Part shown: in pieces, positions 261 through 25,859 of the stretch
Position numbering within the stretch: the stretch's first letter is position 1
How the letters are laid out: each line of letters starts with the position of its first letter
Assembly (NCBI RefSeq): GCF_000003605.2
Contig: NW_003140816.1
Coordinates: 67,933-100,811 of the forward strand
Source: Saccoglossus kowalevskii
Taxonomy: Eukaryota > Hemichordata > Enteropneusta > Harrimaniidae
Direction of reading: 5' to 3'
DNA length: 32,879 nt
Made by a program: the position numbers and the translations under genes
The notes under the pieces: generated by a model
Told to the model about the DNA's origin: nothing
Database searches by the model: none
What the model saw: only the letters and a program-made list of their open reading frames with translations

Positions 261-1837
261 TGGAGGGCTAAAAGCTAGCATTTTGCTTGTAAAAGTATTT
301 ATTAAAAATGGAAATACCTTGATGGATATTCAGCTTTCATCAAATTCAATTATTTGCGAGTAGTGATAGGCTCAGGCGCTAAACATTGTCTACGACCATA
401 ATGCACACGCGTGCCTTTATAGAGCATCGCAGCTGCGATCGCCCACTTAGTCAAAATGATACTATATATGTTGAACTAACTCATCAATATTAATTTGATA
501 AATAGAAAACTGTTTTCGAAATTATTAAGTGGTGTTTTATTGAAAAAAATGTATAGAAACCAACGCCAACAATTTGAGCATGTTATTTAAAGTTTGTTCT
601 GAAGACGGAAAAAACAGATTGATTGTAAATAAAAAAATAGCCATATAGTGTTTGGCAGAACTTCATATGGAATATTGTCACTGTTACATATATGTTCAAT
701 GATCTTGTACATGATCACACATGCATTCTAGTAATTTATATTTTAAAAGTGGTCAAAACTGGGTTTATTTTAAATATAATTGTATATATTACCATACTGC
801 GTGTTCCAAATTGCGTATACAAACCTGCAAATACAACATGCAAATAAGTTAGTTTCAATATATATCAACTTGTAATTTGAATAACGTTATTTTTAATTTA
901 TTTTCAAAAGTTGGCAGAATAATTATATCGAGTTTTACGCCAAGCTATTCGGAGAATGCATAGCATGGGTCATTGGCCGGGATCTTAACAACGTTGCAGC
1001 GGACAATCGATATAACTTTAGGGACACTGTTCATATTAGTATTTCTGTTGATAATTATACGACTAGGCCAACACACATTTTTATATTTTGAGGATATATC
1101 TACATTTCCATTATAATTTTAAAATGGTTTAAAATAATTTTAAAATAGTTTAAAATTAATATCGATATTTGTGGGTGGTATTTTATGAACCAGTTTTTAA
1201 ATATATGTGTTGAGTCATAAAAATGGTCTTAGAATTAATATAAATAATGACAATTCATATCAAATTATCAATACGGCGGACACATGTTACATATAAAAGC
1301 CAAAAGATTCGTAAAATTGGAATGTAACGATAAAAAAAATTATTTTATTGTAGAAGGAACCATGATTTATAGCTTACTTAGTTTTTACCATTGGATCTTA
1401 GCCAGGAATACTTCTTAAACGTCAACTAGTGTTGGCGTAGCAGTAAGATATTTTAGTGACGCGGTGAACAGATCATTACAATAGACTCACACATGTATAT
1501 ATATATATTCATGTACATATTATATGTTATATCATGTATTAGATATGAGAGTATTTACAGGGTCCCTCATTATACTATTGCACTGAAAGGTATTTCAGAT
1601 ACATAATGACATGTAGAGACATCTTTTGTCAGATTGCACCATCTTTTGTCTCTATGAATATATATTCACACTTTCATTCAATGTGTTAATCATAAGTTCA
1701 AGCCATTTTGGATCTGAAAAATAAGTTTGAAATAAAAACGTATATACGCTCAAATCAGGTCAAAACATACTTATAGATGGTGCTAGTAATAATTAACTTT
1801 CCAAAGGCTCCCCCAACGTCACAGTACACGAGGTGAT
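261..1837. other. Non-coding A+T-rich stretch
   Basis: Stop codons are dense in all frames. There are short TA/ATG microsatellite-like runs around 1490-1545. No RNA gene, recognisable exon or repeat shared with the rest of the window was seen. Confidence 0.5.
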
Positions 1838-1845
1838 TGACGTCA
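1838..1845 (+). promoter_or_regulatory. CRE-type site TGACGTCA
   Basis: A perfect 8-base palindromic cAMP-response element, about 100 bases upstream of the open frame that starts at 1943 in a strong initiation context. The same octamer also occurs in the two copies of the dispersed repeat near 4119 and 13241, so by itself it is weak evidence for a promoter. Confidence 0.25.
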
Positions 1846-1942
1846 TCAACATATCAAAGAATTACGACGTTAAGTGTACTAGTGTAATGAGTGTTCTGAA
1901 TACTATTTCAAAATAAAATAAAATCTTTCGTATCGTTTCACC

Positions 1943-2107
1943 ATGGATTTACATTCGACTGGTGATGGCGCAAGTCTGGCTGCTGGTATTGACACAGTAG
2001 AAACATTCGGTATCAACAACAGCCATTGTACACATGCTATTGCGCCGGTTGGGCCGCCTCCTAGTCGCCTCAATATTCACGTTGCTTCGCCTTGTTTTTG
2101 TGAATAA
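1943..2107 (+). CDS. Small open frame of unknown function, 54 codons
   Basis: The ATG lies in a strong context (TCACCATGG). The frame starts MDLHSTGDGASLAAG and ends with a cysteine-containing tail SPCFCE before TAA. Its amino-acid balance is more protein-like than the surrounding A/T-driven frames, and local G+C is higher. There is no signal peptide, membrane segment or family I recognise. It could be a short peptide gene, the first exon of a longer gene, or part of a decayed mobile element. The two longer open frames just downstream (2034-2258 and 2251-2538) overlap it in other frames and look like chance. Confidence 0.2.
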   Translation: MDLHSTGDGASLAAGIDTVETFGINNSHCTHAIAPVGPPPSRLNIHVASPCFCE

Positions 2108-2540
2108 GCAATACTGCTGGCGCAAAGTTGGAATTTTGCTGGTTGCGTCTTTATGTGTTCGTAATGTGCATGTAATTAATATTTTAGTAGTTTTTGTTGT
2201 ATCCAACAATTTTCAACTATGTTTAGCCACACGACCTGCCAGGGCCGCGAATGTTTAACCCGGCAAGACGTGCGCCTGTTGTTTCATTTCGTCATTACTT
2301 TAACGTACCACGTAATTCGTTCTGTGGCGTCTCCCAGTTGGACAAACTTATGTATTTTAATAAATTATTAAATAATAAAATGTTATATAACTTTTCATTT
2401 ATTCCCCTTTCCTGGTATCGATTTCAAGTAATCACTGATCTTTGTTTATACCACTCTTTCCTTTATCACAATCTTTGTTACGCGCTAATGTTATATGCAA
2501 ATTTTAACGCGCGATGTAGACACACCCTATTATATTAAAA

Positions 2541-4049
2541 TATACCAAGGGTTGAAACACTGTTCAGACGAGCCCAACAACCATCCCAAAGTACTGTTTT
2601 CTTAGAGTTTTCGGTTTTTGTTTTCACCGTTATGGTTTCCGGACGATGAAAATGCCTGGGCGTCCGCTCGAGAATTCAACCAAATGGATATGTTTAACAT
2701 CTGTAAAAGGGTTAGTTGGCGTGTCCCTGGCAGTGAAGGCAAGGTTCTTACTGACCACTCATAAAATAAGCATATAACAAATTTGACGCTAACCGGAATA
2801 TCATTTGACATTTTGACATCATCCATGGCAACTTGTTTATATTTCCACATACACATATGCAATGATACGTGTGATTTAGCGGTCTATTAACCAAATTTAA
2901 TTTTTATTTTGGATGACGCTGTTTTTCATCATTCAGTAGACAGGGTGGCAAGATAGGTGTGATCCGAACTTGTAGCTCGAAAATTAGGTCAAAGTGGAGC
3001 AGATACTGATGTTATAGAAAATGATGCTCCTAACGGATTTCAAAAACAGTAAGATGATATGATATAAGTGGTAGTCTAAAGAGCTGAAGAGAAGCAAGCG
3101 TCGACTGAGACGTTAATAGAAGTGCCTACATAGAGGTGTGTGACAGTCTTCTCATATGAAACACAATTGTAATCGCATGGATTGCAAAACATTAGATTAG
3201 GGGATGAGGATTGGGTAGGTTATGTGTCCTAACGGTGCAGTATGATTTTCGTCCTACAAGTTTAGATGGTTCGTGACTTTTTACCCTTGACATTTTTCCT
3301 GTTTTTGGAATTGTATTTCAGTCAATATTACATTGCTTTTATTAGGAGAGCGTGATATTGCAAATTATATAGATCGACGTAGTTTACAAATTATGTTTTT
3401 TTATTGTTTCACAGTAAAGACGCCTGTCACAACGCAGCTGTCATCTATTTGTATTTAGTTTCATGTAGATTATGAATATTTTGATACTGACATACTGTTT
3501 GTCTATTTATAAACATCCTAAAATCATACCAGCGATTGTCGAGAATGCATAATTAATTAGGTATTGCCCAAAATGTTCAAGAAATTGTTTTTGGGTGTTT
3601 ATCAAACTCAGTCACGGTTGTTCTTGTGAGCAAAAGAATGCAAATGTTGCTGTCAATTAATAACTTCATGTGTGGTAAACGTGACGAAGAATATATTACT
3701 TTCCAAGATGAAAAAGACACTCCAAATATCAAGCCACCTTCTGCAAAAGTTGGTACGAGAAAAGTTTTTTCACGTGTGTTCTGTTTTCCTCCCGATCATT
3801 CGTAGAAGGGTGCAAATACGTCTTTATGTTCGATGACAACGTTCATTGCCCCTCAAAATGCAGGAAATAGCGTCTCGGGGTCTATATTTCAAAATCATGT
3901 CCCCGGACCCCCTAGTAAGGTTGCGCCTTTGCAAGTTTGGTGAGCAGACCCCCCCCCCCCATGCAGAATTTCGTGCCGCCGCCTCTGCGATACGGTGATT
4001 ATTTAGAACATAGCAAGCTATTACCAAATTGAATTCTTGTTCACGTGTT
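2541..4049. other. Non-coding stretch
   Basis: No exon or RNA gene was recognised. A run of about 13 C residues sits at 3949-3961. The minus-strand open frame over 3824-4069 crosses this homopolymer and the edge of the dispersed repeat and is not credible as a gene. Confidence 0.45.
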
Positions 4050-4395
4050 ATTGCGTGCCTCTTTCGCACATTTGTCTCCTAGTTACGCTTGTAAACTGTT
4101 ATGTACTAGTACGGTTTGACGTCATGCGATGTTAACCTCTGAACTGTCAAACTATTTATATCAATGACATAACTGAAATGAATCAATATAGTTCTTGTCT
4201 CGCGCTTTGTGTTCTGGTCGGCTATTGTCTACGTAAATTCCCGAGTTTAAAATCGGGCTGTGAATCGGTGGCATTAGGACTTTTCCGGGCGGTCACATTC
4301 TTGCTAAATATCATGTTAGAAAATGCTGTGAGCCTCATTATAACTGGTGATTTATGGTGTTAAGTATCGGGGTATTGTACTAGCTGTAATTGGAT
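4050..4395 (+). repeat. Diverged dispersed repeat, copy 1
   Basis: This segment aligns by eye, with substitutions and small indels, to about 13150-13515. Shared blocks in the same order are GCCTCTTT..TTGTCTC, GTAAACTG.TATGT, GGTTTGACGTCAT..G.TGTTAACCT and, near the right end, ATTTATGG..TTAAG..ATCG.GGTA.TGTAC. Both copies have the same orientation. No terminal inverted repeat or coding capacity is visible, so its class is unknown. Confidence 0.55.
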
Positions 4396-4399
4396 CGCC

Positions 4400-4900
4400 A
4401 ACGTAATGTCCTGTCAGTTGCTTACTTCATACAATAATACTTGTTCTTTATTATCCCTGGGGAAATAGTTCATATAAGGTTATGTAGGTAAGAGTTAGAT
4501 TATACTGAAGGGTGCACAGAAACAAGTTGTAGTTGACTTTGAGCTAAATCAGATTTGTTTAACCTTAATAATGTATTTAAAATCGCATTCTAACTATGTA
4601 AATAGATGAAACAAGAACAAGCTTAAAAACAAAAAAATTGTTTAAATTGTGTTGTTTTAGCTTTAAAAATTATATGATATATTGAAAGTAGATATTCTGT
4701 CCACTGTTTATTGCCAATTTTATTTTAAGAGTTCTGTATTATCTTAGTCAAACATACTTACAATGTAACTGACCTTCAAAGACATACAAAAGTCACCTAA
4801 ATTAGTGAGTGTTTATCTTTACTTAATAACGTTAAAGGCCAGCCACTGACATTAAATTAACTGAGCTATGTTTGTGTTTTGTATTACGTTGCTTAACCGA
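4400..4900. other. Non-coding stretch
   Basis: A+T-rich sequence with no recognised gene, RNA or repeat. Confidence 0.45.
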
Positions 4901-4910
4901 TGAGCCCCGG

Positions 4911-5258
4911 CTATATTCGTCTAAATGAATGGTTGATACTTCTATAGATTTCGTCTAAATTTATGAGAATGTGGGATATCCCCAAATGTAGATCAGCTGG
5001 TCCAGGAGTTATGGGGTGATATTCGTAGTTCAGGACAAAACGAGTAGGAATACGCCCGTCAAAATGTTTTTGGGGGGCACAAACAAGTTCGTACCCATGT
5101 GACTCAACGATCTCAGTAATGCTGTGGAAGTCAAATGCCAGTTGGCGGTATTCGCAGCTACTCTGTTTAGTGTAGTGGCATTCAAGCTGGTTTTGCGTGA
5201 TTTTTATCAAACGTATTTTTGTCAAGGATATCCACCATCTAACGAAACATGTACTCTT
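4911..5258 (-). CDS. Unrecognised open frame, possibly a gene or mobile-element fragment
   Basis: The minus strand stays open for about 115 codons, ending at TAG (4911-4913). The first clear ATG-type start is lacking, and the 5' part (around 5258) begins just after a stop, so this would be an exon or fragment. Composition is protein-like rather than low-complexity: stretches such as YELVCAPQKHFDGR, YEYHPITPGPADLHLG and ILINLDEIYRSINHSF have mixed charged, aromatic and proline residues. No signal peptide or membrane segment is seen, and I do not recognise the family. The plus-strand frames overlapping it are shadows. It may be a remnant of a transposon or a captured gene. Confidence 0.28.
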   Translation of the reverse strand, partial: KSTCFVRWWISLTKIRLIKITQNQLECHYTKQSSCEYRQLAFDFHSITEIVESHGYELVCAPQKHFDGRIPTRFVLNYEYHPITPGPADLHLGISHILINLDEIYRSINHSFRRI

Positions 5259-5399
5259 TCATTTTGTGAATGTTCCTGGAGAGATTTTAGGCTTGAATTA
5301 TTACCATATATTTATAGTAATACTTATATTTATTCTTTATAGTGTATTTCTCATCCGCACTGCCTTCCGACATTTAACGCAAGTTTGCCGACTTTGGAA

Positions 5400-5860
5400 A
5401 TGTTAGTTTTGAAAACACCGAGGTACTAGTATATGATGGATATAGTTTAGGAATGATTTGCAGATTTCTATATATACGTAATCGACTAACAAGTTCTTTT
5501 ACGATTGAAAGACGTGGATGATGGAAGTGCTTCTATTTTGGGGATAATGTTATTTTTACATCATCATCAACTGCTTTGCTCGAACATGTCTTCAATAGGT
5601 TTTGGCTGATGTGCCATTTGTGTTTTGGCATGACGCCCTCTAAGATATGGTAGATAAGTGCGCTGTTAAAATTGGGCGAGTGCCAACGACAACAGTAGAC
5701 TTACTTAGTTCAGTGGGGGTTAGGTACCTGTTTTAGCCCATCGGCTTTTTTGATGCGCTGTTTTACTGCGGCAAATTACCGTGCCGAACTTCATTAAACG
5801 GGACGGTTACAGTAAAATAGCGGAATATCTACAAATAAACGCCGATTCGTCATCTTCGTG
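5400..5860. other. Non-coding, likely upstream region of the death-domain/ZU5 gene
   Basis: No coding signal. CpG dinucleotides become more frequent from about 5740 (CGGCAAATTACCGTGCCG, ACGGGACGG), just before the predicted 5' UTR exon that ends at 5917. No TATA box was picked out with confidence. Confidence 0.3.
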
Positions 5861-5869
5861 ATAGTTGTA

Positions 5870-5917
5870 TTAGTGTTCGAGACTGTATTGTTGGAGTGGC
5901 GCAGTAGGGTATCCGAG
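5870..5917 (+). other. Possible non-coding 5' UTR exon end (donor at 5918)
   Basis: A near-consensus donor CCGAG|GTAAGT lies at 5917/5918. The next good acceptor is TTGTTACAG ending at 6086, which would leave an intron of about 170 bases and an exon beginning at 6087 that carries the ATG at 6175. This suggests a spliced leader exon for the downstream gene. The 5' end of this exon is not determined; 5870 is only a nominal start. Confidence 0.35.
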
Positions 5918-6174
5918 GTAAGTTTCTGGCCTTAGTAGTCTGAAGCGTTAAATCAAGATAGCTCATATGAATCCATGTCCACAAACTTTGACATTGACAT
6001 CGGTGATGACCACTGTTTTGTGTCACTGGCAGTAAACTTATTTTAGCATGAACGCCGCTTGTGTCTATGTTGTTGAATTGTTACAGTGAGACCGGCGGGT
6101 TTTTGGTTTCGAGTGTTGCTAGCATTCAATTTATCTGTCGATCATTAGTCACATAACTATATAGTACTTTTATA

Positions 6175-6277
6175 ATGCAAACGACATATTATTTAAAGAC
6201 CCTCGCACTATTCTTACTTTTAGTTGTTTATGTGATGGCTACAAATGACACAGTGCAGAAAACTACCAGAAATCATG
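6175..6277 (+). CDS. Exon 1: signal peptide
   Basis: The frame starts MQTTYYLKTLALFLLLVVYV. A short polar start with one lysine is followed by a hydrophobic core (LALFLLLVVYV) and a small-residue site (VMA|TND), giving a predicted cleavage after residue 22. The exon ends CATG|GTAAGT, a strong donor, in phase 1; the split codon completes as GAT (Asp) with the next recognised exon. Without splicing the frame would stop at 6340-6342, giving a 55-residue secreted peptide. The link to the death-domain exons rests on matching phase and on having no better exon between. Confidence 0.6.
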
Positions 6278-9200
6278 GTAAGTACACTGATTTTTGTGAC
6301 AATTTTGATCAAGAGACACCTGTCGTAATAAAAAAGAAATAAAATGTGAAAATCCTTTCACCCAAGTTTTTTTTAAATCTGAAAATCGCCGAAATGTTTG
6401 GGATTAACAGGGGGATGTTGTTGGGATGCCTAGATATCGTCAATTTGTGGTCAATGTTATCCGGGAAGGACGCACGATTAAGTCTCGTCGTGCAAGAATT
6501 CCAATGCAGGCTGGTCACCGCTAAATAAACGCACCTCCGCCATTTTTAGTTTCGAGTACCCACGAATGCAGCACGTCTGTTATATGCGATGGCAAACACG
6601 TGACATCTTGGTTGTCACATGTGGTGTTCTATAATACGAAATGCGCTTTGGTTTGCTAAAGGGAATTGTAAAAACGCCAGAAAGGTAATAATCGGCCTTC
6701 CCAATAGCAGTAGAACTAGTATGTCTGTTATTTTGTGCATTGTCTGTTTATCCAATAATTTACATTTTCAAGTGTTTTTTGTGTTTTTTTTAATATGTTT
6801 TGTGCCAGGCGACAGTTCTGGACATTAAGTGTCACTGTTGTCTCTCCTGGCTTTTTTTTTTTGTATGTGCAAATTGCAAGTGCTAGTGACGACACATAGT
6901 GCATTTTGCCACAGAAGTCGTATTCATATTTGGGACTACATGACCGGGCTGTGTGGCCATCTCTCTGTCAAATGGCAATTTGTAATGCGCTATCCTGGCG
7001 TCAACCAGGCCCGGTCGAACACAAACACCTGCGGACCTTAACCAAGGTTCCCCCAAAGTCGCATTCGTTAGTGAATGAAGTGTGTTTTTTGCTGTTTTTG
7101 TTCGACGCATATGTGTTACTGCGTGAAACTTCAGACAACTAACAATTTTATACTCTGTTTTATTTTTACCCGGACCTGTTTTATGAATATCTATAGGCCC
7201 ACGAGAATCACTAACGTAAGGAAAATATTAAACTTCGGTCTGACCTTTTGTGTCACTTCCTGTTGAAACACCATAGTAACTCGCGGGGTTGTGCGTTTTC
7301 GTGTGACTTCGTGGGCAATTTCCTATCTCCCCCAGTTGCTTAACAGCTTTAAACGTTATCGCAAAAGTAAACACGAGACACAAGTTAGATCAAAAGAAAT
7401 ACCTGCCGTGCCAGTATGTTTATTAATTGTCTGAGGTGAAACAGAGTGAACAGAGTTCTTAAGTTTCCGAGATACTTGAAATCAAAACATTGGCACTCTT
7501 ATCCACACTCAGGTATTGTATAAATTATCATTATAACTCATTCAATACACGTATTACCGTGTATTGATTTACTGTGTAGTAAACTGTTGCCATAGTGACA
7601 TCACGATATTGTTATTTATTTATTTATTATTTGTTAGAAACAAATATCACAGGAGTGCTATAAATGTATTGTTTGCTAATTATGTTCAGTATTGTCAACT
7701 TCGTAATTTAGTTCTTGAGGCACACCCCTTCTAATCACGTGATCGTCAGGGTGCCGTCGGCTGCAGCCATTGGCTGTCACATGTTTGCTCATCCGCGCCT
7801 TAGATTGTCATTGGGTATTGACGAGTCTGTAAGAGAAGTGAACAGCAATGCGTTAACGCAGCTGGTTGTTTGAGGAATAACTCGGACTATCCGTAATGAA
7901 CTAATGTGTATTCCTTTGGTTGAGACCTAGTATCTTTACAGTGTAAGAGCTATCTGCCAAGTGTGTGGAAGTTCTACACTCTACGTTCCTTTCGTAGCAT
8001 ATGGTGGAGAATCCGGCCATTAATCCCCATACCTCTCATAGAGACCATTTAAAGATCTACGTTCTCTTGTAATGCATCTTTGTAACATTTTATAAGCATT
8101 TATTGGTTCACATGAGATATCTCAGAATAGTTCGTATATGTGTTACCATAGCTTGGTTCACACAACCTTGCAGTATCATTAGGATCTACAATTTGCATAT
8201 TTAAGGTAGATATTATAAACATATATTACAGGAATTGTATAACTAATTGTGTTCAATATTGGCAATTTCTAAAAAATATCAGATTTATATTTAATACAAT
8301 GCTCGTCTGAGAATAATCATGATATAATGAACAAAATTACCCTCAACGCTAACATTAAAAAATGTCGTCTAGACACCCTATGCTCTGTAAGGTTCGGTAC
8401 GATTGTTATTGTATTGTAGTGTGTTTGTTCTCGTCCCGTAATCAATATCGATTTTTCTTTTCTACGTCTCGACAAGTTGAAAACACCTATTGTATGGCAC
8501 TCTGTTTTTGAATGGTCGTACTAGTAAAGTGTCAGTGAAGTGAAAAGAACGACGGCTGAAAGCTCCATGACCGAATACAGGACATTTGCACTCTTCTATT
8601 TTCCTTCTGTGGGTACCAATTCATATGTAGCATATAAACGTAAATGTCCACCCAAGATGTACATTTGATTTACAAGACCAGTGTATTAAAGATGGGGGAG
8701 TTTCATATTTGTGGGAGTGGAGAGAATGGTTTATCGTGACATTGTGAATATTAGTTGTTACAAACAAGGTGATCATATGTCCACCATTGGTAACTTCATA
8801 CTGTCTATACTTGTGTAAGCTGATTTGTTAGTATTGGTACGGCTAACTGAAAAGTTTGAGAACATTTCGGAATAGACTTGATGATTTTCCTTTTGTAACA
8901 ATAAACACATTCTGCAATTTCTATGTATTATCAAACATATTCACCTATGTATGGAAACACAGCATGATGAAGTTCCTAACCCAAACCACGCTAAGACTAG
9001 AAAACATACATTATGAGGAGTAAACATTTTTTGCAAACATTTTCTAAAAACGTTTATAGCAATTTATACTTTTATGCCGCAGATTCGGTGCTGAAAACAG
9101 CGATAGATGTACTGAAAAAGTCTCTCAGATGCATGGATTCACGACGGCTTGGGATCAGATTAGGTTTGTCTGATGCCGATCTGAACAGCTTGGAACATGA

Positions 9201-11849
9201 CTACCCGCGTGATCTGAGAGAACAAATTTATCAGATGTTTGAAATGTGGAAAGGAAGGCGGGGAAACAAAGCAACGATTGCAATTCTGATTGCTGCCTTG
9301 AAGGACGAGGGCTTGAACAACATGGCACAGTACATTGAACAACTTGGTAAGAAAAAAATATAATTAAATATTGTATTTTAAAGGTCGATTGCTCATTATC
9401 AAAAATAGTATATTACATGAACATCTTATCACAGAAGATAGGGGACATCCAAATAGGTGGTTTACATTTGGAATTCAAATGATAAAATTTGTGTTGCAAG
9501 GCTGTTGAAAATGAACTGCATTTCATTATCATTTTGTTTTGTTTTTTTCAGTGGGCTCTGAAAAAGGAAGAGGAAACGAGGTTATAGTCAGAACAATAGA
9601 CACCTACGAAGATGTCGTGGTATGCCGAATGTGTTATATATATCATTATTACGCAATAATAATTACGTAATAAAATGACCTTCGTTGGTCGGGTCAAAAG
9701 TAGTCATTAATTGGCATACATGTATTTGTATAAAGCATGCTCGTTTATTTATATGTCTTGTATTACAGTGTGTAACCGAGAAGATCAAGGTTGAGGTGCC
9801 ACGAAATGCTGTACCGGAAGTGGTCAGCCTAACATTCCAAGCAAAGCAAATGGATGCTCGGAAATTATGCATTGGTCCTCGTGAACCTGACATTATAGAA
9901 TGTTTAGAACTTGGTCCAGATGGATATAAATTCTTGAAACCACTCACATTATGCTACAAATTGCCGAAGGTTGTGTTAGAGAGGAGTAATGTGATCATAC
10001 TAGCACTAACTAGTGAAAATTGTACTGGTCCATGGACTAAACTTAAAACCTGGAAGGTAAGAGTGTTTTAGTTTGTTGCTGTATGGGAATTGCTCTTGGA
10101 TTATTTACACACTAACAGATAATAATAAAAAAAGTGTTCGAACTGGGTGTCCTAAATTTTAATAACGTAACAAAATATTAATGATTGTAAACGTGGTTAT
10201 GTTGTTTTATTGGCAGGAAGGCAGTAATATCAAAGTGGAAGTCGAACACTTTTCCTATTTAGCTATAGTGTTCCAAAAGAAAGATGAGACCATTAAGATG
10301 GTGGGTTTCAATGTAACTTACACAAACACACACTATAACTCAAAATTATTAAATAAATGTGCACAATTTTCAAGACTCTGCATTCCTGTTTTCTTTTCTA
10401 TGATTAGTCGTCAATTTGTGTGTCTGCGGACTTAATTTTCCAGATCTGTTAGAAAATGGATTTTAAAGACTCTGTGCATATAATACATATAATTGGGCTC
10501 GTCACCCTGTGCATGTGGTAAAATCTTTTCAGTTGTCCTGTCCAGCAATGGGGTTAGGGGTCGTCAACTAATGAGCAGTTACCCCCCCCCCCTTCATTTT
10601 CTTTTGGTATAGATAAATGAATGTAAATTGTTGAATAATACGACAAACATCAATATTTATATTTCAAACATTCAAAAATGTTACTACAACTTCGACATGT
10701 GAATCGACATATGGGGCTTATTTAATTTGCATTGCATACTTTATATAATTGTTTCAGAAATATGCAGAGAAAAAGCTGGCAAAAGAAAGAGATCAAAAGT
10801 GTAAGTTCAGTTACATACAATCCAATAGGAGTTAGTATGCGTGTAATAGCTCTTAATCAATCACTAAACGCCATGCCCACTTTCGTTGTATTCAAAAACT
10901 GCGTCATCTTTAGATTCACTATAGTTTTTGGATTCACTTAGCATGGCGTTCGGCATTCCCACCTATTCAGAATTAGAGTACTCTAAACTATAGTTGTTCA
11001 AATGGTCATATTTTTATATTTTTTTCTTTACTAGTGAACTTTGCCTGTCTGTTTCTGTCTTTTAGTGAAATCTGTTGTAAGCAAAATTTCGCCTGCACTT
11101 CGCTCGAGAGACTGGAAGTCCGTAGCTAGAGCTTTGCATTTTATCGAGGCAGACATTGATGCTATAGAAAAGGATTATGCTAACGATTTTCAAAAGCAGA
11201 AAGACGAGATGTTTCATAGATGGAGATCTAGAGTAAAGCATAATGCATCAGCTGAAACATTAATAGATGTGCTTATAGAACTAGAGATGTATAAATTAGC
11301 TGAAGAAGCAGAGAAAGCACGTAAGGCAATTAGTTATTACGTAATGTTTGAATGTCAAGTCACTGTACAGTGTTTTTCCATGCAAAGCATGCCTGATACA
11401 TCGATAAAAGTGTATACGTATGTGCGAATTTGAAGATTTAAAAAACAAGTTCTGAATACGAGGTACTATAAACTACTTTATTTTCGCTTAGAATTAATTT
11501 TCGCTGAAGGAGTGATTCAGTGAAAATAAAATCCAGCGAATATACCTTTTTTTCTATATTTTACATTCAACTCGTCAAAAATCAGTGAAAAAAAAATTCC
11601 ATACAAAACACCTAAAATCTCCTTTCAGCGAAAATGAATTGCAGCTCAAATTTAGTATTTTACATCATCTAGTTTTGTATCAAATTTTGTATATATCAAA
11701 AGGGTTGTTGACATTATGTTTAAATTTATATAAATAGGTTATATATACTTAGTGCTTTTTCCATGTTCATTACAGTTACCGTCATGAAAACGGATACAAA
11801 ACAGAAGAAATCTATTTTTAAAAGCAGTGCTGTTAACATCGGACTGTAA
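6175..11849 (+). CDS. Death domain-ZU5-death domain protein with predicted signal peptide (8 coding exons)
   Basis: Joined exons 6175-6277, 9083-9346, 9552-9619, 9769-10056, 10217-10300, 10758-10800, 11066-11320 and 11776-11849 give 1179 bases, 392 residues plus stop. Every junction is GT-AG and phases match throughout (1,1,0,0,0,1,1). Order: signal peptide 1-22, death domain about 35-118, ZU5 about 146-263, charged linker 270-283, death domain about 285-365, basic tail to 392. Death domains bind other death domains in apoptosis and NF-kB adaptors; ZU5 occurs with death domains in UNC5, PIDD and ankyrins. UNC5 and PIDD have a UPA domain between ZU5 and death domain; none is seen here. No transmembrane segment is seen, so either the protein is secreted, exon 1 belongs to an alternative product, or an extracellular/TM exon in the 2.8-kb first intron was missed. 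Function is inferred from domains only; orthology is not established. Confidence 0.72.
6278..9082. other. Intron 1 of the death-domain/ZU5 gene
   Basis: 2805 bases with no further exon that I could defend. It contains one copy of an A-tailed retroposon (6793-6957, minus orientation) and, at 7725-7800, a patch with TCACGTGA and two ATTGG boxes resembling the left-edge promoter patch, which might be an internal promoter. The CCGCCATTTTT near 6538 is a YY1-like motif. An unrecognised exon for an extracellular or membrane segment could be hidden here. Confidence 0.5.
6793..6957 (-). mobile_element. A-tailed retroposon, copy 1
   Basis: About 165 bases are the reverse complement, with only scattered mismatches, of 31943-32100. 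Shared words include GTGCCAGGCGACAGTT, ACATTAAGTGTCACTGTTG, TGCAAATTGCAAGTGCTAG and CACAGAAGTC. Read on the minus strand the unit ends in an A-rich tail (next to 6760-6793), as SINEs and LINE 3' ends do. No coding capacity was seen. Confidence 0.6.
9083..9346 (+). CDS. Exon 2: first death domain
   Basis: The acceptor TTATGCCGCAG|A and donor CTTG|GTAAGA bound 264 bases in phase 1-1, a complete shufflable module. The product has the death-domain pattern: an N-terminal helix (SVLKTAIDVL), then LGIRLGLSDADLNSLEHDY, the helix EQIYQMFEMW, and ATIAILIAALKDEGL before a last helix (NNMAQYIEQL). The LGL.DADLN.LE and MF..W positions are the hallmark residues of UNC5/ankyrin-type death domains. Confidence 0.85.
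9552..9619 (+). CDS. Exon 3: linker between death domain and ZU5
   Basis: A long T-rich acceptor (GTTTTTTTCAG) precedes a 68-base exon that encodes a hydrophilic linker, GSEKGRGNEVIVRTIDTYED, ending VV at GTG|GTATGC. It enters in phase 1 and leaves in phase 0, which is what the flanking exons require. No domain is recognised. Confidence 0.72.
9769..10056 (+). CDS. Exon 4: ZU5 domain, main part
   Basis: 288 bases, phase 0-0, from TATTACAG|TGT to GGAAG|GTAAGA. The opening IKVEVPRNAVPEVVSLTF matches the ZU5 start (I.IP.GA.P). ECLELGPDGYKFLKPLTL matches the conserved block (CGP.G..F.KPV.L) seen in UNC5, ZO-1, PIDD and ankyrin. The stretch CTGPWTKLKTWK corresponds to the later 'W' strand. A PIDD-type HFS autocleavage site is not in this exon; the HFS motif falls in exon 5. 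Confidence 0.8.
10217..10300 (+). CDS. Exon 5: end of the ZU5 domain
   Basis: 84 bases, phase 0-0, from TTGGCAG|GAA to AAGATG|GTGGGT. It encodes NIKVEVEHFSYLAIVFQKKD, which fits the last ZU5 strands (V..HFS.FAV) of ankyrin- and PIDD-type domains. HFS is the tripeptide at which PIDD ZU5 domains cleave themselves; here it is followed by tyrosine, so cleavage is possible but unproven. The donor GTGGGT is weaker than others in the gene. Confidence 0.75.
10758..10800 (+). CDS. Exon 6: short charged linker
   Basis: A 43-base micro-exon between ATTGTTTCAG and a perfect donor GTAAGT. It encodes KYAEKKLAKERDQK, a likely helix, and moves the frame from phase 0 to phase 1 as needed for the second death-domain exon. 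It takes the place where UNC5 and PIDD carry a UPA domain. Confidence 0.68.
11066..11320 (+). CDS. Exon 7: second death domain
   Basis: 255 bases, phase 1-1, after acceptor TCTGTCTTTTAG and before donor CAC|GTAAGG. The product shows VVSKISPALRSRDWKSVARA, then LHFIEADIDAIEKDYANDF, the helix DEMFHRWRSR, AETLIDVLIELEMYKLAEEA. It is a paralogue of the exon 2 domain (LE/IEKDY, MF..W), consistent with an internal duplication of a phase 1-1 exon. If the donor at 11321 is not used, the frame reads on to a stop at 11431-11433 with a tail of unremarkable sequence. Confidence 0.85.
11464..11665 (-). mobile_element. Palindromic MITE, copy A (in intron 7)
   Basis: Eroded ends TACTATAAACTACTTTATTT and AGTATTTTACA with internal TTTTCGCTGAAGG and ATCAGTGAAAA match the family consensus (see copy at 26093-26283). 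It is oriented like copies E and F, opposite to B-D. It lies between the second death-domain exon and the predicted last exon and supplies no coding sequence. Confidence 0.75.
11776..11849 (+). CDS. Exon 8: predicted last coding exon
   Basis: A good acceptor (TTTTTCCATGTTCATTACAG) opens a frame in the required phase 1. It encodes the basic tail LTVMKTDTKQKKSIFKSSAV, followed by NIGL and TAA. Phase agreement and the total length divisible by three support it, but a 23-residue tail has no domain to confirm it. An alternative acceptor at 13624 would also give a short in-phase tail. Confidence 0.5.
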
Positions 11850-12517
11850 CCACAATACCAAGAATTTCTTCATATCAACTCTTGTGAGCTGAATTTTAAA
11901 TAATATGTGTTCCATGCGCGTTAAATGAAATTCTTGACAAATCCAAGATTGAAGACATGTCAACCATGTTGTTATCATTATAAAGCCACTTTTAACAGCC
12001 TCGTGCTGCCACCAAAGAAATCCGCCAGGATGAAAACGCACCCCAATGGGAAAGTACCTGTTAGTGTATTTGTTGTAAATGCATACGTGAAATATCATGT
12101 TTCTCTTTTATTCATACATTTGTGTATCTTGTTAGTTTATATGTAGTTTTCTCACTAGATACATCATGTACATTTACTGATGTCAGAATCCGAATCTGCT
12201 TGATTTCTTGGAGACAATGTATTGTGTTTTATTTTCTATTCTCTTACATTCCATTCTGTTGAATTTGAATTCAGCAACACATCAATACAGGTGTCACCAT
12301 ATATAATATTCATTTAGAATCTATCCATATGTGACTTTCCGTGTATTCCAGAATAGAATACAGTCGTGCAGGTAAAATATACATTTATAGAGCTTTGTAT
12401 TTCAAACGTTAGTTCAAATATAAAAGAAATATATAAAGTATAAACCCATTGTGGCTGCCTTGAACAATTTATGAAGTGAGACAATTATTTGTTTTCAAAT
12501 AATAATGTTATAATCAG

Positions 12518-12911
12518 AATAAACAAGAAATATCAGTTTTATATGTATGTGCAATATTAAATTATAGGATGAATTTATGACGTGAACTTGACTTTGCTTT
12601 ATGGAGTGTTTTATATTAACGTAATTTATTGTTTCAGTATTTTGATGTATTAACTTTACGATTAACTTTTCATTGTGTGTTTGTATTATATCCTCGTTTG
12701 TGGGAGTTTATGATAAGGAACCTGTGTCCAGGTCATTATTTACAATGCAGTGTCAATGCACTTTTTACAATAGATGTGTTTGTCTCATTAACATATGTAT
12801 ATGCTTCTACATTCTGATATTGTACTGGAATTCTGTATCGTTTTTTATGAAATACATTTACATGTACGCGTGTTAACTGAAAGTAATAAAATACTTTGTG
12901 TCACTAATAAA
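12518..12911 (+). terminator. Candidate poly(A) signals of the death-domain/ZU5 gene
   Basis: AATAAA occurs at 12518-12523, 12885-12890 and 12906-12911. The last two are followed within 30 bases by T/G-rich sequence (TTTGCTTTCGTTGGTGAC and a T run), the usual downstream element. The 3' UTR would then be roughly 0.7 to 1.1 kb. Open frames at 11925-12146 and 12629-12876 inside this region look like chance. Confidence 0.4.
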
Positions 12912-13149
12912 TTTGCTTTCGTTGGTGACATTTTTTTTTCAGCAAAGAACATACACATCTAGTGCTACTATTACGCTATTTGTTTCTGTTACATAACATA
13001 ACAACATTGTCGTACATGTCTGTAAATGCCTTCGCAGTATAGCACAAACATCAAACACCAAATATTGTGGATATTAAGATCATAGCACACTATTGCCAAA
13101 TTGAATTACTTCATTCTACAAAGCCTGTGAAATAAAACGTTTCATATTC
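12912..13149. other. Intergenic, nothing recognised
   Basis: A+T-rich, with no exon, RNA gene or repeat recognised. Confidence 0.4.
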
Positions 13150-13515
13150 AACGGGTCATTAGACACCTCTTTATAGTATAATTGTCTCTCAGCGACGCCC
13201 GTAAACTGGTATGTCCGTCACGTGTTGGTGGGGTAAATGGTTTGACGTCATATGGTGTTAACCTATTGACTCCAGACCTCGTTAATATATAGAAAGCTTG
13301 TTCGTTCACATCCAGATTATATTTTTGGACAACTAAATAAAAGAAACAATGCGTCACACGAGTTGCGTGCTGGCCGAGAGATTGGATTTTTAAAAAGAAT
13401 GTAAATGCGATAGGTTTTAAAATCATGTGACACGTAAGAAAATGTAATTCGCTTCATTATCAATACTAATTTATGGCATTAAGACATCGAGGTACTGTAC
13501 GAGTTACCCCTCTTG
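13150..13515 (+). repeat. Diverged dispersed repeat, copy 2
   Basis: The counterpart of 4050-4395 with the same order of conserved blocks, including TGACGTCA at about 13241 and the ATTTATGGCATTAAG block near 13470. The minus-strand open frame here (13148-13426) has no counterpart frame in copy 1, so the repeat is probably non-coding. Confidence 0.55.
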
Positions 13516-17400: not shown

Positions 17401-18197
17401 CTGTGCCTATTTACTTGAAAATATTGCGATTGGAGCTGTACTTTCCCGTCCGTTTTTTGTTCACTTCCGTACGCGTACTGCTTTAATAGTGCGGAACAGA
17501 TCGGCTGTCAGAATCGGAGTTTGTAGCGGGTGCCTGTGGCTGTTGTCTGGGAACAGAGTGTTATCTGTGAATGGCGTAAACGCTATGAGTCTATAGTTAA
17601 CCAATTCGACTTTGCGTTTATTGTGTTTGAGTTATTTATTTCACGTACGTGGGACAACTAGCAACCGATCTGCCGACACATACACCGTACGCGCAACTGA
17701 CAAAATGGCTGCCAGTGGGCAGACTCTCGTACACTATCATGTTTACTTCAGAACTGGTACATCTTGAACCGTAGAAAGTAGTCTCCCGTACACTAATAAC
17801 ACCCGCCTGGGTGTATGGGTGGGTATTTTAGGCTAGGTTTATACAATTTTCCTCGAAGTTGGTATTTGAATAGTATTTGTTGCCTGCGATCACCGCCATA
17901 TTGAATTCCTTAAAGGTCAGGGCGATTACTGGGCCAGTTGCTACTTCCTGCACTGTTTACCGATTTCTACGGAATGTATACAAGTTGTGAAATTTTCGCG
18001 TAAATGTGATTATTGCAAGACCAAAAAGTTAGCCTCGTTGTCAATTCAACAAAGAAAATTTATATTTGTTACCGAAAAAATCGCCAAGTTTTAAATAATA
18101 TGAAATGGCTTCTGTAAAAACGAGGGCAAGACCGTACATGAGAGCGTAAGTTGAGTAGAGAGAAGTTAGGGGCATTTATTTTTTTTGTTTTCGTAAT
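17400..18197 (+). promoter_or_regulatory. Probable promoter and 5' UTR region of LATS
   Basis: CpG dinucleotides are clearly more frequent here than in the introns. Words typical of CpG promoters occur: CACTTCCGTACGCG (ETS-like, about 17463), AAAATGGCTGCC (YY1-like, about 17703), and CACCGCCATATTG (YY1-like, reverse, about 17892). A strong donor AGC|GTAAGT at 18145/18146 sits 50 bases before the start codon and could mark an alternative 5' UTR exon end. The transcription start is not determined. Confidence 0.38.
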
Positions 18198-18575
18198 ATG
18201 AAGCGAGACAATACAGACAGAAAAAATCGCCCCAAAACTGTCCCCAGTACGTACGTGGGCAACAGCCAACAAATGCTACAAGAAATAAGGGAAAGCTTGA
18301 AACACTTGCAGATCCAACCCGAACAGAACCAGGACCTCTCCAGCAAAAATCAAACACACCGAGCTGCTTCCTCAGATAGCGGTAGTTCCCAAATGGCAGC
18401 TCAACAAGGTGCAAGTGGAAGGCAGCAGAACAGGTTTGGTTCTCACCAGAAAGCACTAGCACAGATCAAGAATAGTTTGGAACCATATCAAACTGTAACA
18501 CCAAATGGACTTGACCCGTCGTCGGCCAAATATGCTGCCATGTTGCAAGATATGGCAGCTCTAGGAATAAATGAG
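18198..18575 (+). CDS. LATS: LATS/warts serine-threonine kinase, first coding exon (N-terminal 126 residues)
   Basis: LATS is the NDR-family kinase of the Hippo pathway; it phosphorylates YAP/Yorkie and keeps it out of the nucleus. The frame opens MKR and shows the landmarks of animal LATS N-termini: RPKTVPSTY at 11-19, MLQEIRESLKHL at 26-37, FGSHQKALAQIKNSL at 80-94, and the start of the UBA domain (KYAAMLQDMAALGINE, 111-126). Between the first two blocks lies a Q/S-rich linker (38-79). The ATG has A at -3. The exon ends AATGAG|GTTTGT in phase 0, so the UBA domain is split by the intron. Reading past the donor gives only an intron-like tail to a stop at 18687-18689. The kinase domain is not in the window. 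Invertebrates usually have a single LATS gene, but whether this is LATS1/2-like in a duplicated set cannot be told. Confidence 0.9.
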
Positions 18576-19523
18576 GTTTGTATATTTACTAATATTTTTC
18601 TTATAAATTTACTATACTTTGTGATACATAAGTACATGATTGTTATTAATTCACAAAATAAACAGACACAGTTTGATACTATTTATTAATATTATTGTCA
18701 ATAATGATGAGGTCAACAATAATTGATAAAAGTAAAATATTACTGAAAAATATCAAAACTCCAAGATCATTATTTACTAAAAAATGACTAGTCACTATTG
18801 TAAAAATATCATGAATGAATGGTCTGTTATATGATCAGTTTTCTAATTTTAGTTTCCTTTGTGTACAAGGCAGACAATAGCATGCATTGCGCATTATTTA
18901 TAAAAAAAAATGACAAAGAACATGGCCTCCTCAAATTTAATTTAAAAATTACTGTGGAAATCTGCACTCCTTTTAAAAACGCATAACATGTTTGTATTAA
19001 TACCAGGCAATAAATATTAATATCTACAATAATAATACATATTCCCTTTTTAACAAAAGGAACTGTAAATTTAATGTTTTTTCATGAAAACTAAAAACAG
19101 CACAATAATTAACGTGTGTAAGAATATGTACCTCAACATTCACCAAATTTATGAGATTCAGCAAGAAACATTAAAATTGTGTTTGACTTTTTTCTCTTCA
19201 AATAGTAAAGGTCTCAGGATCTCCCCTGATATAATGTGCTAATTATCATAACAATAGAACCTGTTATTCAAATTGTTCTATTATTTCACACAGTCATTAT
19301 GGGATGACAATTTCTATGGAGTTTGTATACTGTGAACTGCTTTGTTATAGGACAAATTTTCAAGTGTCAGTAAAAAAATCAGGAAAATTTTTAATAGTGA
19401 AAATTCTTCTGTCCTCAATTACAGATTGTCAGTCTTTCACAGAACTTTGTCTTCAGGAATGCTATCAAATTCTGAAATCAACAAAATTTCTATCAGTAAA
19501 AATTAAATGGTTTTAATACAATA

Positions 19524-19726
19524 TACTGTTGAATACTTTATTTTCGCTCGAATTAATTTTCGCTGGAAAGGCTTTTTGGGCGTTCTGTATGGAATTTATT
19601 TTCACTGATTTTTGATGAGTTGAATGTGAAATATAGGAAAAAAAGTATATTTGCTGGATTTTATTTTCACGGAATTGTCCCTCCTGCGAAATTAAATTCC
19701 AAGCGGAAATAAAGTATTCTTCAGTA
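19524..19726 (+). mobile_element. Palindromic MITE, copy B
   Basis: Starts TACTGTTGAATACTTTATTT and ends AATAAAGTATTCTTCAGTA, with internal TTTCACTGATTTTTGATGAG. Terminal inverted repeats extend for about 40 bases each side. A TA dinucleotide at both ends fits a TA target duplication. Minus-strand open frame 19513-19734 is simply this element. Confidence 0.8.
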
Positions 19727-21440: not shown

Positions 21441-21654
21441 TACTGTAAACATGGGTTTTGTTAAGTAATCGGCAAGTTGGATTTTCACTGAAAAGATTTT
21501 TTGGGTGTTTTGTATGGAATTTGTTTTCACTGATTTTTGATGAGTTGAATGTAAAATATAGGAAAAAAAGTATATTCACTGGTTTTTATTTTCACTGAAT
21601 CATTCCCTCAGGGAAAATAGCGAATTCCAAGCGAAAATAAAGTATTCTACAGTA
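21441..21654 (+). mobile_element. Palindromic MITE, copy C (left end degraded)
   Basis: The right end AATAAAGTATTCTACAGTA is intact and the interior (TTTCACTGATTTTTGATGAG) matches copies B and D. The left inverted repeat is hardly recognisable (TACTGTAAACATGGG at 21441). Confidence 0.7.
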
Positions 21655-23915
21655 CTTATTATTTTATCAAGGAAGTTTGTTTTAGAGTAACTGCTTTAGC
21701 AGCATTTTACAATAAGTACGAAGTACCATATTTGCTCTATTCAAACTTCAAATAAACCAAATATTACATTTTTTACCATAGTTTTTTTAGGTACGTGTAT
21801 TAATTAGTAAAGTTTGTGTTCTTTATGAAATTACTACGAACATAGAATCGGCAAGTTTGAATGAATCATCATGCTGTGTAGACATTTTTCCCAATGGTGT
21901 TCTGTGAATGAAGTTTGTCCCAACATTACGCTGCTTGCTTCCTTTGTCAAAAAATTTCTGGTTTGTCTGATTATGATGTTATAGTATTGGGTGCAAGGTT
22001 TGAAATTCCATAAAACGGAGATTATTTGTTTAATGTGTTCATTGTTCACAATTAATGCTGGCCTTACTATCCTGAATCTAGTAAACTAATGTATGTTTTG
22101 AATGGTGGGCCAATAAGTTGTTAATTTCATCATTTAATTTGACATGCAATTGTCATTCACTAAATGTCGCTATTAAAGAGAATGATCGAAGCAAAGGCAG
22201 ATGACGAAACTTTATTTTTACTGTCCCAATCTTTGCCAAATTTTATTAAAAATTGGCATACAAATTGTACCTATACTCAATTGATTTATTTCTTGGGGAA
22301 TGACCTACCAGTACTGTACTGCAGACTAGTATGTTTTTTTGGTCAGTATTGAACCATGACATTGCTTGCATGCCATAGAGCCAAATTCCACTGATGACAT
22401 AGGAAATAACATTTATGTGGCAGTCAGTGTGTAAGTGGATGTGCACATGGTTGCTCACAAATGGCATATTCTAAGAAAGTAGGCACTCCCCGTAGTTGAA
22501 GTATGTTATGATCTTCCTGGGTAGTCATTGTTAGTGTCCTTATTTGTAGTGTACATGTACCTATTCTCAAGAAAATTGTAAATACATTGTGTGTGCCTGA
22601 TACCGTGTATATAATTGTTATAATATTGTCCATATTTGGGCATTGCATTACGTCATTGCTATATATTATCATTACTCAATCACTTTCAATTCGTTCCGGA
22701 TCTTTGTGATTTTAAATTGGTTTCCTAATGAAATATGGTGTTGATAAGATTGCACATAAAGTTTTTCTTCCTTCAGACATCTTTCCCTTCATGCGCTCGT
22801 TATTTAACAAAACCTGTGTGTAACTTTTTCACTACCAGTTCCCGCTTTTCATCACAAATTTACAAAACACATGTACATTGTAGTCCCATTTATACATAGT
22901 CTGCACTTTTCTTCAGAAGATTGGGACAAAAATAGCCAATTTTTCTGTTGGCTGCAAGATTAGGGTTCATTTCCAGAAATATTGAAGGATACAAGAAAAA
23001 AAGTGTGAACAAATTTGAGCGATGTTTACATTTTAGTCTTCCCAAATTCAAAAATTCTGGATATCAGTCAGTTCCATTAAAGTCTTATTGAAATCTTGTG
23101 AAATTTTATACCCTTTATTATGTAGGCAATAAATTTTAAGTAGAGAAGATCAAGTAAATGGTACCACATATATTTTCCCAATATAAATTGATAGAATATT
23201 ATATTTGCACATGGTTGAAAGGGGAAACTCCTGTTTCTGTATTTACTTTCAGTCACTTTTAAATAATATGTTTTGAAAAACAGTCTAGTTTTTTGAATAC
23301 AAAATTAAATTGAAAATTTGAACTGGTCAAAAAAAATCAGACATTACAAAAACATAAGATGCAACAGGCACATCGTTTGTTGTAAGAAAAAGCAACATAT
23401 CCATCAAAACAGAATCACTTATTTAAAAGATTAAAATATGATTGAGTTTTATCGCTGTAAAAAATACTTGCAGATGTCTTTCGTGAGTTTCATCTGTTAA
23501 ATATCATCATGACAGCTGTTAAAACTATTTCAGTACTCGTTTTACCTTTTAAAAAGTGGTAATCATCTCTTTAAAAAACATTTTGCAGCGAAATCAATGT
23601 CAACAGATCCACTGTCAGCTGGCATACAAGTGATGATAAAATCAATGCGATTAATTTACCAATATTTACTATTTTGAGAGAAGCCATCTTGAATACGACT
23701 TGAAACTGAAGCTAACATTGAGTCAACCGCTAATAAAATTTGACAGCATTCATTGGTTTTGCATGGAAAATCTCTTGCATATAACACCTCATTATATGTA
23801 AATACCTTCCTGAGGTTTTTGAAACTGAAATAGTCATCTAGTAACTGTAAGGCCGTTGCTGATTGGCTCCTTCGTTGGATGACAATTTCAGTTTCAATAG
23901 CAAGTATAATTTGTA

Positions 23916-25025: not shown

Positions 25026-25859
25026 ATTCACCATACATGTACATGTATGACCTCAGTATTAACAGAAATGGATTTTAATTTGATAGTATTACAGTAATAT
25101 TTTAATTCTACCAAATAAAAAATAGATGAAAGTTTAATGCAACAGCTTTTTGCAACCTGTCTGTCACAGTTTTTGTCCACATAAATACATACGAACTTGA
25201 TGTTAGTTGATTTCCCCTCAGTGACAGCTGTTTTCACATTGCCCAAATTAATTTGATTCACTAAGGATAGTTGTATGGCAGTAGAGAACATTCATTTTAC
25301 AGCCAAAATAGTTGAAATGGTCATAGGAATAATATAAGGGATATTGAATGGAGTCAAACTTATTCAGCATCTAGAAAATTACATTTGATGCCTCATGAAG
25401 TTCAAGTCTTATCAACTCTTTTTATGTTCAGAATTGTCTGAGAAAATGTATTAATTTTGTGATTTTATTTTGTCATCAGTGAATATTTTAAATTGAGATT
25501 ATTTACATGATTCACTCATTTAGTGAAGTAGGAAAACTCGTTTGGGAAAAATGGGAAATTTAATTCATGAGCTCAAAATTTATTTATTTATGTGTAAATT
25601 AGCTATGGTCATTCTGACAAATTTGTTGATAAATATCTAGCGATCTGTGATATTTAAAAAAAAATATATTCTGAAAATTTAGATGTCATTTTTCCCTGCC
25701 TATCTACTTAATTACTTCATGTTTAGACCCCTCTGTAGCAGGAAGGTTGGATAACTGAAATGACAGTAGTGTGTCTGTGGTTAAATTAGATTGTATTTTA
25801 ATAATCCAGTATATGATATAACTGTTGGTTTACATGGGCTTCTAATGAAGCAAATATAA
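25026..25859. other. Intronic, nothing recognised
   Basis: A+T-rich sequence with no exon, RNA gene or identifiable repeat. Confidence 0.4.

Follow-up and report, generated by a model that had tools for sequence, protein, structure and literature searches.

A predicted gene for a protein in which a ZU5 domain is bracketed by two death domains (DD1 and DD2) was found in a stretch of 32,879 nucleotides from Saccoglossus kowalevskii (contig NW_003140816.1, positions 67,933 to 100,811; hereafter the window). Judged by sequence comparison, this gene appears to belong to an expanded PIDD-like family of the same genome, and we hold with moderate confidence that it is a PIDD-family derivative with an extra death domain in front, whose ZU5 would cut itself and whose product would modulate full-length PIDD-like proteins.

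Eight exons (E1-E8, Table 1) were joined into 1179 nucleotides, corresponding to 392 residues and a stop codon, and the frame proposed in an earlier note on this DNA was thereby reproduced, with GT-AG borders in all seven introns and consistent phases (1, 1, 0, 0, 0, 1 and 1). Splice sites were ranked with a simple splice matrix, whose values are approximate, in the region 5870-12911 (507 GT and 363 AG sites), 5870 being the start of the 5' exon as given in that note. The seven donors ranked between 2 and 17 of the GT sites and the seven acceptors between 2 and 49 of the AG sites, with the weakest acceptors at E4 and E6 (ranks 44 and 49). E1 is the least secure exon, and no convincing paralog of it was found, the best tblastn match elsewhere in the genome stretches compared having an E value of 0.32. 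This exon encodes the hydropathy maximum of the protein, and a membrane segment is proposed solely from this hydropathy; the protein would begin at or in the membrane if E1 is real. A repeated element is located within intron 7. No Rfam match was obtained in the window, and among six further window frames searched with Pfam, five had no match up to E 5 and one had only matches below the cut-off.

Table 1. Location of the gene, its domains and neighbouring features in the window (positions counted from the first nucleotide of the window).
Feature	Positions	Strand	Evidence
Decayed death-domain exon copy, in-frame stops	2972..3128	+	Nucleotide match and tblastn
Colinear remnants of the 3' flank of the gene	3990..4383	+	3990-4145 resembles 13062-13271; 4312-4383 resembles 13431-13503
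Possible 5' untranslated exon	5870..5917	+	Donor 5917: 11.8 bits, rank 1 of 507 GT sites in 5870-12911
E1, start codon and hydrophobic stretch (signal peptide or N-terminal anchor), phase 1 donor	6175..6277	+	Donor rank 3 of 507
E2, death domain 1 (DD1) in one exon, phase 1-1	9083..9346	+	Pfam Death 55.4 bits
E3, link and beginning of the ZU5 region	9552..9619	+	Acceptor rank 2 of 363
E4, ZU5 core	9769..10056	+	Pfam, PDB-chain HMM, paralog HMM, tblastn from the L019 ZU5 exon
E5, ZU5 end including EVEHFS	10217..10300	+	Similarity to L020 and L019; motif in both
HFS codons (residues 252-254), predicted self-cleavage F253/S254	10247..10255	+	Motif meaning: PMC3210808 (in excerpt)
E6, short charged linker	10758..10800	+	Gene model
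E7, death domain 2 (DD2) in one exon, phase 1-1	11066..11320	+	Pfam Death 56.3 bits
E8, C-terminal tail and stop	11776..11849	+	Gene model
Two AATAAA (12885, 12906) 3' of the stop	12885..12911	+	Sequence scan

The domain order Death-ZU5-Death expected from a domain search was recovered by Pfam for the two death domains, which lie far above the cut-off of 22.6 bits, and not for the ZU5, which reached 16.6 bits (E 0.0098) against a cut-off of 21 bits. Profiles built for this domain were also applied: with an HMM of nine paralogs from which the window was excluded, E4 scored 31.8 bits, against 11.5 bits for the best of 5000 shuffles, and with an HMM of four PDB-chain sequences the E3-E5 piece scored 16.2 bits, against 7.7 bits for the best of 2000 shuffles. 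The ZU5 exon of the PIDD-like locus L019 also matched E4 by tblastn (E 3.5e-9), and no match up to E 10 was obtained when E3-E5 was searched against PDB sequences. By these comparisons the ZU5 was confirmed as real but divergent. A score of 64 bits was set aside because the HMM that produced it had the window among its sequences. A seeming match of E3 in L024 was rejected, as that sequence has no AG/GT borders, and the E4 acceptor region resembled 4867-4900 only at a level (E 0.17) that was taken as chance.

The two death domains share 27.6% identity (40.8 bits), so that their description as paralogous holds loosely, but each is closer to the death domain of the PIDD-like locus L020, the top match of both (47% identity and 77.8 bits for DD1; 38% and 58.2 bits for DD2), and a simple internal duplication was rejected for this reason. 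In a tree of 37 death domains of at least 30 bits (two from the window, weaker domains having been dropped) and two FADD pieces, neither DD1 nor DD2 obtained a supported placement. Among PDB sequences, both exons matched FADD best (E 1.3e-8 with DD1 and 1.3e-6 with DD2); death domains of the same genome outscore it, however, and the identification of DD1 as a FADD gene was rejected for this reason. No family of the death effector domain (DED) type present in FADD was detected in the Pfam scan of the protein.

Relatives were surveyed with Death and ZU5 profile scans of the 572 Mb genome, which produced 55 Death matches and 44 ZU5 matches up to E 10; such a scan may miss divergent ZU5 domains, the one in the window being outside those 44. 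As judged by pairwise scores and exon borders in this one genome, the nearest relatives are PIDD-like genes with an LRR exon, ZU5, further blocks and a death domain. Both L019 and L020 consist of an LRR exon (Pfam LRR_4 at 85.3 bits in L019, by pattern in L020), ZU5, an exon with HFS, two more conserved blocks and a death-domain exon. Position and phase of the intron after ZU5 agree between L019 (between TWQ and ED) and the window (between TWK and EG), and the L019 death-domain exon is preceded by a phase 1 intron, as are E2 and E7. LRR-type frames were located 5' of ZU5 in 7 of 20 genome stretches. ZU5 and death domains were both detected by HMMs in 12 of these stretches, five of which (L024-L026, L033 and L034) had no LRR frame found.

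None of these 12 loci has a same-strand death domain ahead of ZU5 within the stretches of 3.4-6.9 kb. L027 and L028 each contain two same-strand death domains, with no ZU5 found between them, and L029 has the order LRR-ZU5-DD-DD. The statement that known ZU5/death proteins carry a single C-terminal death domain was thus contradicted by L029 and also by MACC1, which has two (PMC11585957, in excerpt). The order DD-ZU5-DD, which the earlier note had presented as apparently new, is present here and was not found within the stretches of the other 12 loci, and no description of it was found in the literature searched, among the matches listed; its novelty across animals is unproven, the comparison having been made within one genome. 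A new kind of protein was not sustained, since the shared exon border and EVEHFS point to a rearranged PIDD member.

Several PIDD parts were not found. No LRR family appeared in the Pfam scan of the protein and no LRR pattern in any window frame, and the LRR exons of L019 and L020 had no tblastn match at E 0.5 in the window or L031. No match inside the gene was obtained with the second ZU5-like block of either L019 or L020. No UPA family was detected by Pfam, and an HMM of the block at the UPA position in nine relatives gave no window score above 3.8 bits; a UPA-like remnant at 81-248 (tblastn E 0.015) was discarded, as the nine-sequence HMM gave no confirmation.

E5, L019 and L020 carry an identical EVEHFS motif at the end of the ZU5, whereas identity in the ZU5 exon has fallen to 27-32%; E5 itself is 67% identical to L020 over 18 residues and 42% identical to L019 over 26. 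HF/S is the self-cleavage motif of PIDD (PMC3210808, in excerpt). When the region downstream of ZU5 was scanned in ten relatives, HFS was present in L019 and L020 and absent in L021-L026, L029 and L037; SFS strings occur in L024, L025, L026, L029 and L037, none of them in a ZU5-end context, and KHFS ends two ZU5-like exons of L030. A stricter motif scan was set aside because it missed the known HFS of L019 and L020. The only histidine of the ZU5 region is that of HFS, and counterparts of the other histidine and of the glutamate important in CARD8 were not identified in this region.

Cleavage at the predicted F253/S254 site would part DD1 from DD2. The earlier note had proposed that the ZU5 could bridge two death-domain assemblies. 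Such a passive bridge, an uncut ZU5 that spaces the two death domains, is consistent with the absence of UPA but is considered unlikely, because EVEHFS is conserved despite so divergent a ZU5 exon; a possible self-cleaving hinge is the preferred reading of the domain. Not every ZU5 has the motif, as UNC5B reads DQLG and ankyrin-1 TDFP near the HFS position, which also fits an uncut bridge; these residues were matched by eye, MAFFT having left the ZU5 ends unaligned, with the help, for UNC5b, of its Leu where cleaving proteins have Phe (PMC3210808, in excerpt). Cleavage may moreover fail here because UPA is absent, whereas in PIDD, CARD8 and NLRP1 the cut sits inside a ZU5-UPA module.

Upstream of the gene, nucleotides 2999-3128 align with 11149-11275 at 69.7% identity (E 1.2e-9), and DD2 matched 2972-3124 by tblastn (E 7.8e-5). 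The remnants of the 3' flank are, by their similarity, those of an old tandem duplication. The decayed death-domain copy would suit an arrangement of two genes, in which E1-E2 would end a PIDD-like or death-domain-only gene and E3-E8 would be a separate ZU5-DD gene, with no DD-ZU5-DD protein. PIDD-like genes do adjoin in this genome, in tandem on C1602, where 8 kb separate the death domain of one gene from the ZU5 of the gene that follows, and inverted on C1345 and C1316, and an ATTAAA occurs at 9363, directly after E2. However, the gap between E2 and E3 has only 205 bases and no AATAAA, the phase 1 donor of E2 fits the phase 1 acceptor of E3, and the promoter and first exon of an E3-E8 gene must fit these 205 bases or overlap E2, so that two genes seem quite improbable. 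Also improbable is a gene of recent origin or in decay, a PIDD-like copy that was rearranged and has low or no transcription, as the decay of the nearby copy and the repeated element in intron 7 could suggest, since all eight exons are open, the splice sites are mostly fair and, in all nine comparisons made between window exons and paralogs or among the window exons, conservation of the second codon position equalled or exceeded that of the third. For E2 and L020 the codon-position identities (0.54/0.74/0.33) form a pattern interpreted as that of a protein under constraint; E7 and L019 gave little contrast (0.49/0.58/0.48).

In the explanation favoured, that of a PIDD-family derivative, a PIDD-type gene without LRR sensor, second ZU5 and UPA would have received a second PIDD-type death-domain exon before ZU5, an insertion that would be frame-neutral because of its 1-1 phase. 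The protein would fold as DD1-ZU5-DD2 and its ZU5 would cut itself at F253/S254, in analogy to the self-cleavage of PIDD behind its ZU5 domains. The resulting halves, DD1 with most of the ZU5 and the last ZU5 strand with DD2, would stay associated until one is removed, and DD1 and DD2 could then enter PIDDosome-type death-domain assemblies. As UPA is missing, weak activation is expected from a freed DD2 piece, which would bind partners and so act as modulator or competitor of the full-length PIDD-like proteins of the genome. A more far-reaching version is doubtful: a two-headed switch in which the self-cut ZU5 would leave different death domains on two non-covalently held halves, and one signal removing or pulling away the (perhaps membrane-bound) DD1 half would free DD2, so that two death-domain assemblies would be coupled or uncoupled at a single stroke. 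A description of this arrangement was not found in the literature searched, among the matches listed. In PIDD, the choice between survival signalling and activation of caspase-2 is made by successive self-cleavage; a relative without sensor or UPA, with the cleavage motif and a second death domain, would offer a natural way of testing the contribution of each part, and would illustrate the rearrangement of cell-death genes through frame-neutral exons in an expanded PIDD-like family of an invertebrate-type genome.

UNC5 and UNC5CL have the layout membrane part-ZU5-UPA-DD, and the window gene shares with them the ZU5 followed by a death domain and, if E1 is real, the N-terminal hydrophobic stretch, and differs in having no UPA and an extra death domain. 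The FIIND of CARD8 and NLRP1 is a ZU5-UPA followed by CARD, and resembles the window gene in ZU5-type self-cleavage, predicted here, before a death-fold domain (PMC3210808, in excerpt), but has CARD instead of a death domain, the motif SF/S and a UPA. MACC1, whose closest homolog is named as SH3BP4, is also a ZU5 protein with two death domains (ZU5-SH3-DD-DD; PMC11585957, in excerpt); both lie near its C-terminus together with an SH3, whereas those of the window gene bracket ZU5 and no SH3 appeared in the Pfam scan of the protein up to E 10. PIDD1 is organized as LRR-ZU5-ZU5-UPA-DD (PMC11637483 and PMC8385073, in excerpt); cleavage of the human protein takes place at S446 and S588, its PIDD1-CC form kills, and its PIDD1-DD form, when alone, binds RAIDD with no evident killing (PMC11637483, in excerpt). 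The window gene differs from PIDD1 by the missing LRR and UPA, the single ZU5 and the additional death domain in front, and shares with it HFS at the ZU5 end and the C-terminal death domain, and with the PIDD-like L019 the exon border after ZU5.

Rebuilding the window gene from the sequence regained the 392-residue, eight-exon (E1-E8) protein of the earlier note, with seven GT-AG introns in phases 1,1,0,0,0,1,1. The two death domains, DD1 (E2) and DD2 (E7), are each encoded whole in a single exon with phase 1 at both ends, and the E3-E6 block that includes the ZU5 part is likewise phase 1-1. Most donors and acceptors scored fair to good and the E4 and E6 acceptors were weak, on an approximate matrix. 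The start codon is in E1, as is the protein's most hydrophobic stretch. In E2, no in-frame ATG precedes residue 52, which lies within the death domain, and therefore an intact DD1 requires a coding exon further upstream. A scan of 5870-9000 (ATG-to-donor, phase 1, donor of at least 5 bits) revealed four candidates, two of them corresponding to the two ATGs of E1, whose donor was the best (9.5 bits vs 7.2 and 5.4). No convincing match to E1 was found among the same-genome loci compared (best non-self match, E 0.32). Shorter isoforms are possible because AATAAA and ATTAAA signals are present in introns as well as 3' of the stop codon. Intron 7 also contains a short repeated element, recurring with 81-86% identity, which looks like a non-autonomous mobile element.

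Pfam domains expected in the order Death, ZU5, Death were recovered for Death twice (by exon, 55.4 bits for E2 and 56.3 bits for E7; cut-off 22.6), but ZU5 was weak and below the cut-off (16.6 bits against 21). This ZU5 is nevertheless real, because two HMMs beat the best shuffles: one of four PDB ZU5 sequences (16.2 bits; best of 2000 same-residue shuffles, 7.7) and one of nine same-genome paralogs with the window left out (31.8 bits; best of 5000 shuffles, 11.5). FADD was the top PDB match for both death domains.

Features located in the window and in related loci of the same genome
Sequence	Position	Strand	Feature
Window	2972-3128		Decayed death-domain copy with in-frame stops
Window	3990-4145, 4312-4383		Colinear matches to 3' flank of the window gene
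Window	6175-11849	+	Window gene
Window	9669, 10124, 10352, 11525		AATAAA, among intronic signals
Window	9363, 10348		ATTAAA, among intronic signals
Window	12885, 12906		AATAAA, 3' of stop codon
Window	11455-11664		Repeated element, intron 7
Window	about 19532-19716, 21481-21663, 23975-24180, 26093-26275		Recurrences of this element
Window	18159-18632		LATS-like exon
Window	24277-25078		Minisatellite-like DNA giving long repetitive open frames
Window	30819-31279	-	Further set of short repeated frames
L027 (C2359)	2388-8513	same	Two death domains
L028 (C2351)	6702-8214	same	Two death domains
L029 (C2440)	2273-7229		LRR frame, ZU5, two adjoining death domains
L030 (C1316)	737-3505	+	ZU5-like exon, weak score, ending in KHFS; death domain downstream
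L030 (C1316)	9592-7302	-	ZU5-like exon, weak score, ending in KHFS; death domain downstream

Elsewhere in the window, the exon at 18159-18632, which we take to resemble the N-terminal part of LATS, a kinase of the Hippo pathway, matched LATS1 peptides weakly in PDB (E 0.048) and had no Pfam match above the cut-off.

The window gene was compared with two PIDD-like loci, L019 and L020, which form an inverted pair on contig C1345. They have in common, in this order, the exons for LRR, ZU5 and HFS, two more conserved blocks and the death domain exon. The middle blocks have no Pfam match, so that naming them second ZU5 and UPA is tentative, by position and look. The ZU5 exon of L019 matches that of the window gene (E 3.5e-9), E5 is 67% identical over 18 residues to its L020 counterpart, and EVEHFS is identical in the three genes. 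The intron between the ZU5 and HFS exons has the same place and phase in the window gene and L019, in which a phase 1 intron precedes the death domain exon, as before E2 and E7. The L020 death domain was matched by DD1 (47% identity, 77.8 bits) and DD2 (38%, 58.2 bits), and DD1 by DD2 (27.6%, 40.8 bits). No LRR was found in the window gene by Pfam, pattern scan or the L019/L020 LRR exons as queries, nor a second ZU5 with the L019/L020 blocks, and the UPA-position block reached at best 3.8 bits over the whole window. Because of these likenesses and missing blocks, the window gene reads as a member of the PIDD family, its sensor half apparently replaced by a second death domain exon of PIDD type. 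DD1 had no resolved placement in a tree of 39 death domains.

Over 2999-3128 the decayed upstream copy has 69.7% DNA identity to E7 (E 1.2e-9), and the flank matches follow it in the same order as in the window gene, a pattern that, judged from the sequence, represents an old tandem duplication. This copy and the paired PIDD-like genes on contigs C1345, C1602 and C1316 (the latter inverted) demonstrate local duplication of such genes, which could plausibly have supplied the extra death domain exon.

A profile scan of the assembly (572 Mb, 4830 contigs) gave 55 matches to Death and, up to E 10, 44 to ZU5; the window's own ZU5 was not among the 44, so divergent ZU5 domains escape the scan. From the loci examined (20 stretches, then 20 more), both domains were found by HMM in 12/20 of the first set, with ZU5 preceding the death domain in all 12 and no same-strand death domain ahead of ZU5 within the 3.4-6.9 kb stretches examined, nor in a further 10 kb for L019 and L020. 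On C1602, with two tandem ZU5-DD genes, the first gene's death domain lies 8 kb ahead of the second's ZU5, outside the stretch examined for the latter. LRR-type frames were detected by pattern scan upstream of ZU5 in 7/20 stretches (L019-L023, L029 and L037; Pfam tested and confirmed for L019 only) and not in L024, L025, L026, L033 or L034, also among the 12 loci. L029 has a second unusual PIDD-like order. The HMM scan, which can miss divergent ZU5, found none between the paired death domains of L027 or L028, which are either other tandem-DD genes or neighbouring genes.

The earlier view that known ZU5/death proteins have a single C-terminal death domain is contradicted by L029 and by MACC1, a ZU5 protein described with two death domains in passages of PMC11585957. 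The order DD-ZU5-DD was not found in the open-licence literature, among the matches listed and passages available, nor were the strings Death-ZU5 and ZU5-Death among the matches listed; its novelty is a limited claim resting on that literature.

According to passages of PMC3210808, PIDD is cut after each ZU5, at HF/S. By analogy, self-cleavage would fall between F253 and S254, giving predicted halves 1-253 and 254-392 with one death domain each. The ZU5 is indeed flanked by two death domains, as in the earlier proposal of a bridge between assemblies, but the HF/S analogy favours a hinge able to open. The fragments of PIDD have effects of their own: in excerpts of PMC11637483, PIDD1-CC kills, and PIDD1-DD by itself binds RAIDD with no obvious killing. 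The freed DD2 half would be expected to bind more than activate, because UPA is missing. Against cleavage, HFS was present in only 2/10 relatives in a downstream motif scan, and the passages on ZU5 self-cleavage mention no precedent without UPA. In 8/10 best Pfam ZU5 matches (L009-L018), namely L009, L010, L012, L013, L015, L016, L017 and L018, the frame runs on to HFT at PIDD's HFS place, and this threonine could be an alternative nucleophile. UNC5B and ankyrin-1 chains have different residues near the cleavage site, as compared by eye (alignment did not match the ZU5 ends).

PIDD1 has the order LRR-ZU5-ZU5-UPA-DD in the passages of PMC11637483 and PMC8385073. L019 and L020 are alike in block order, their middle blocks being likened by position and look, whereas the window gene, without LRR, second ZU5 and UPA, keeps HFS and has an extra death domain in front.
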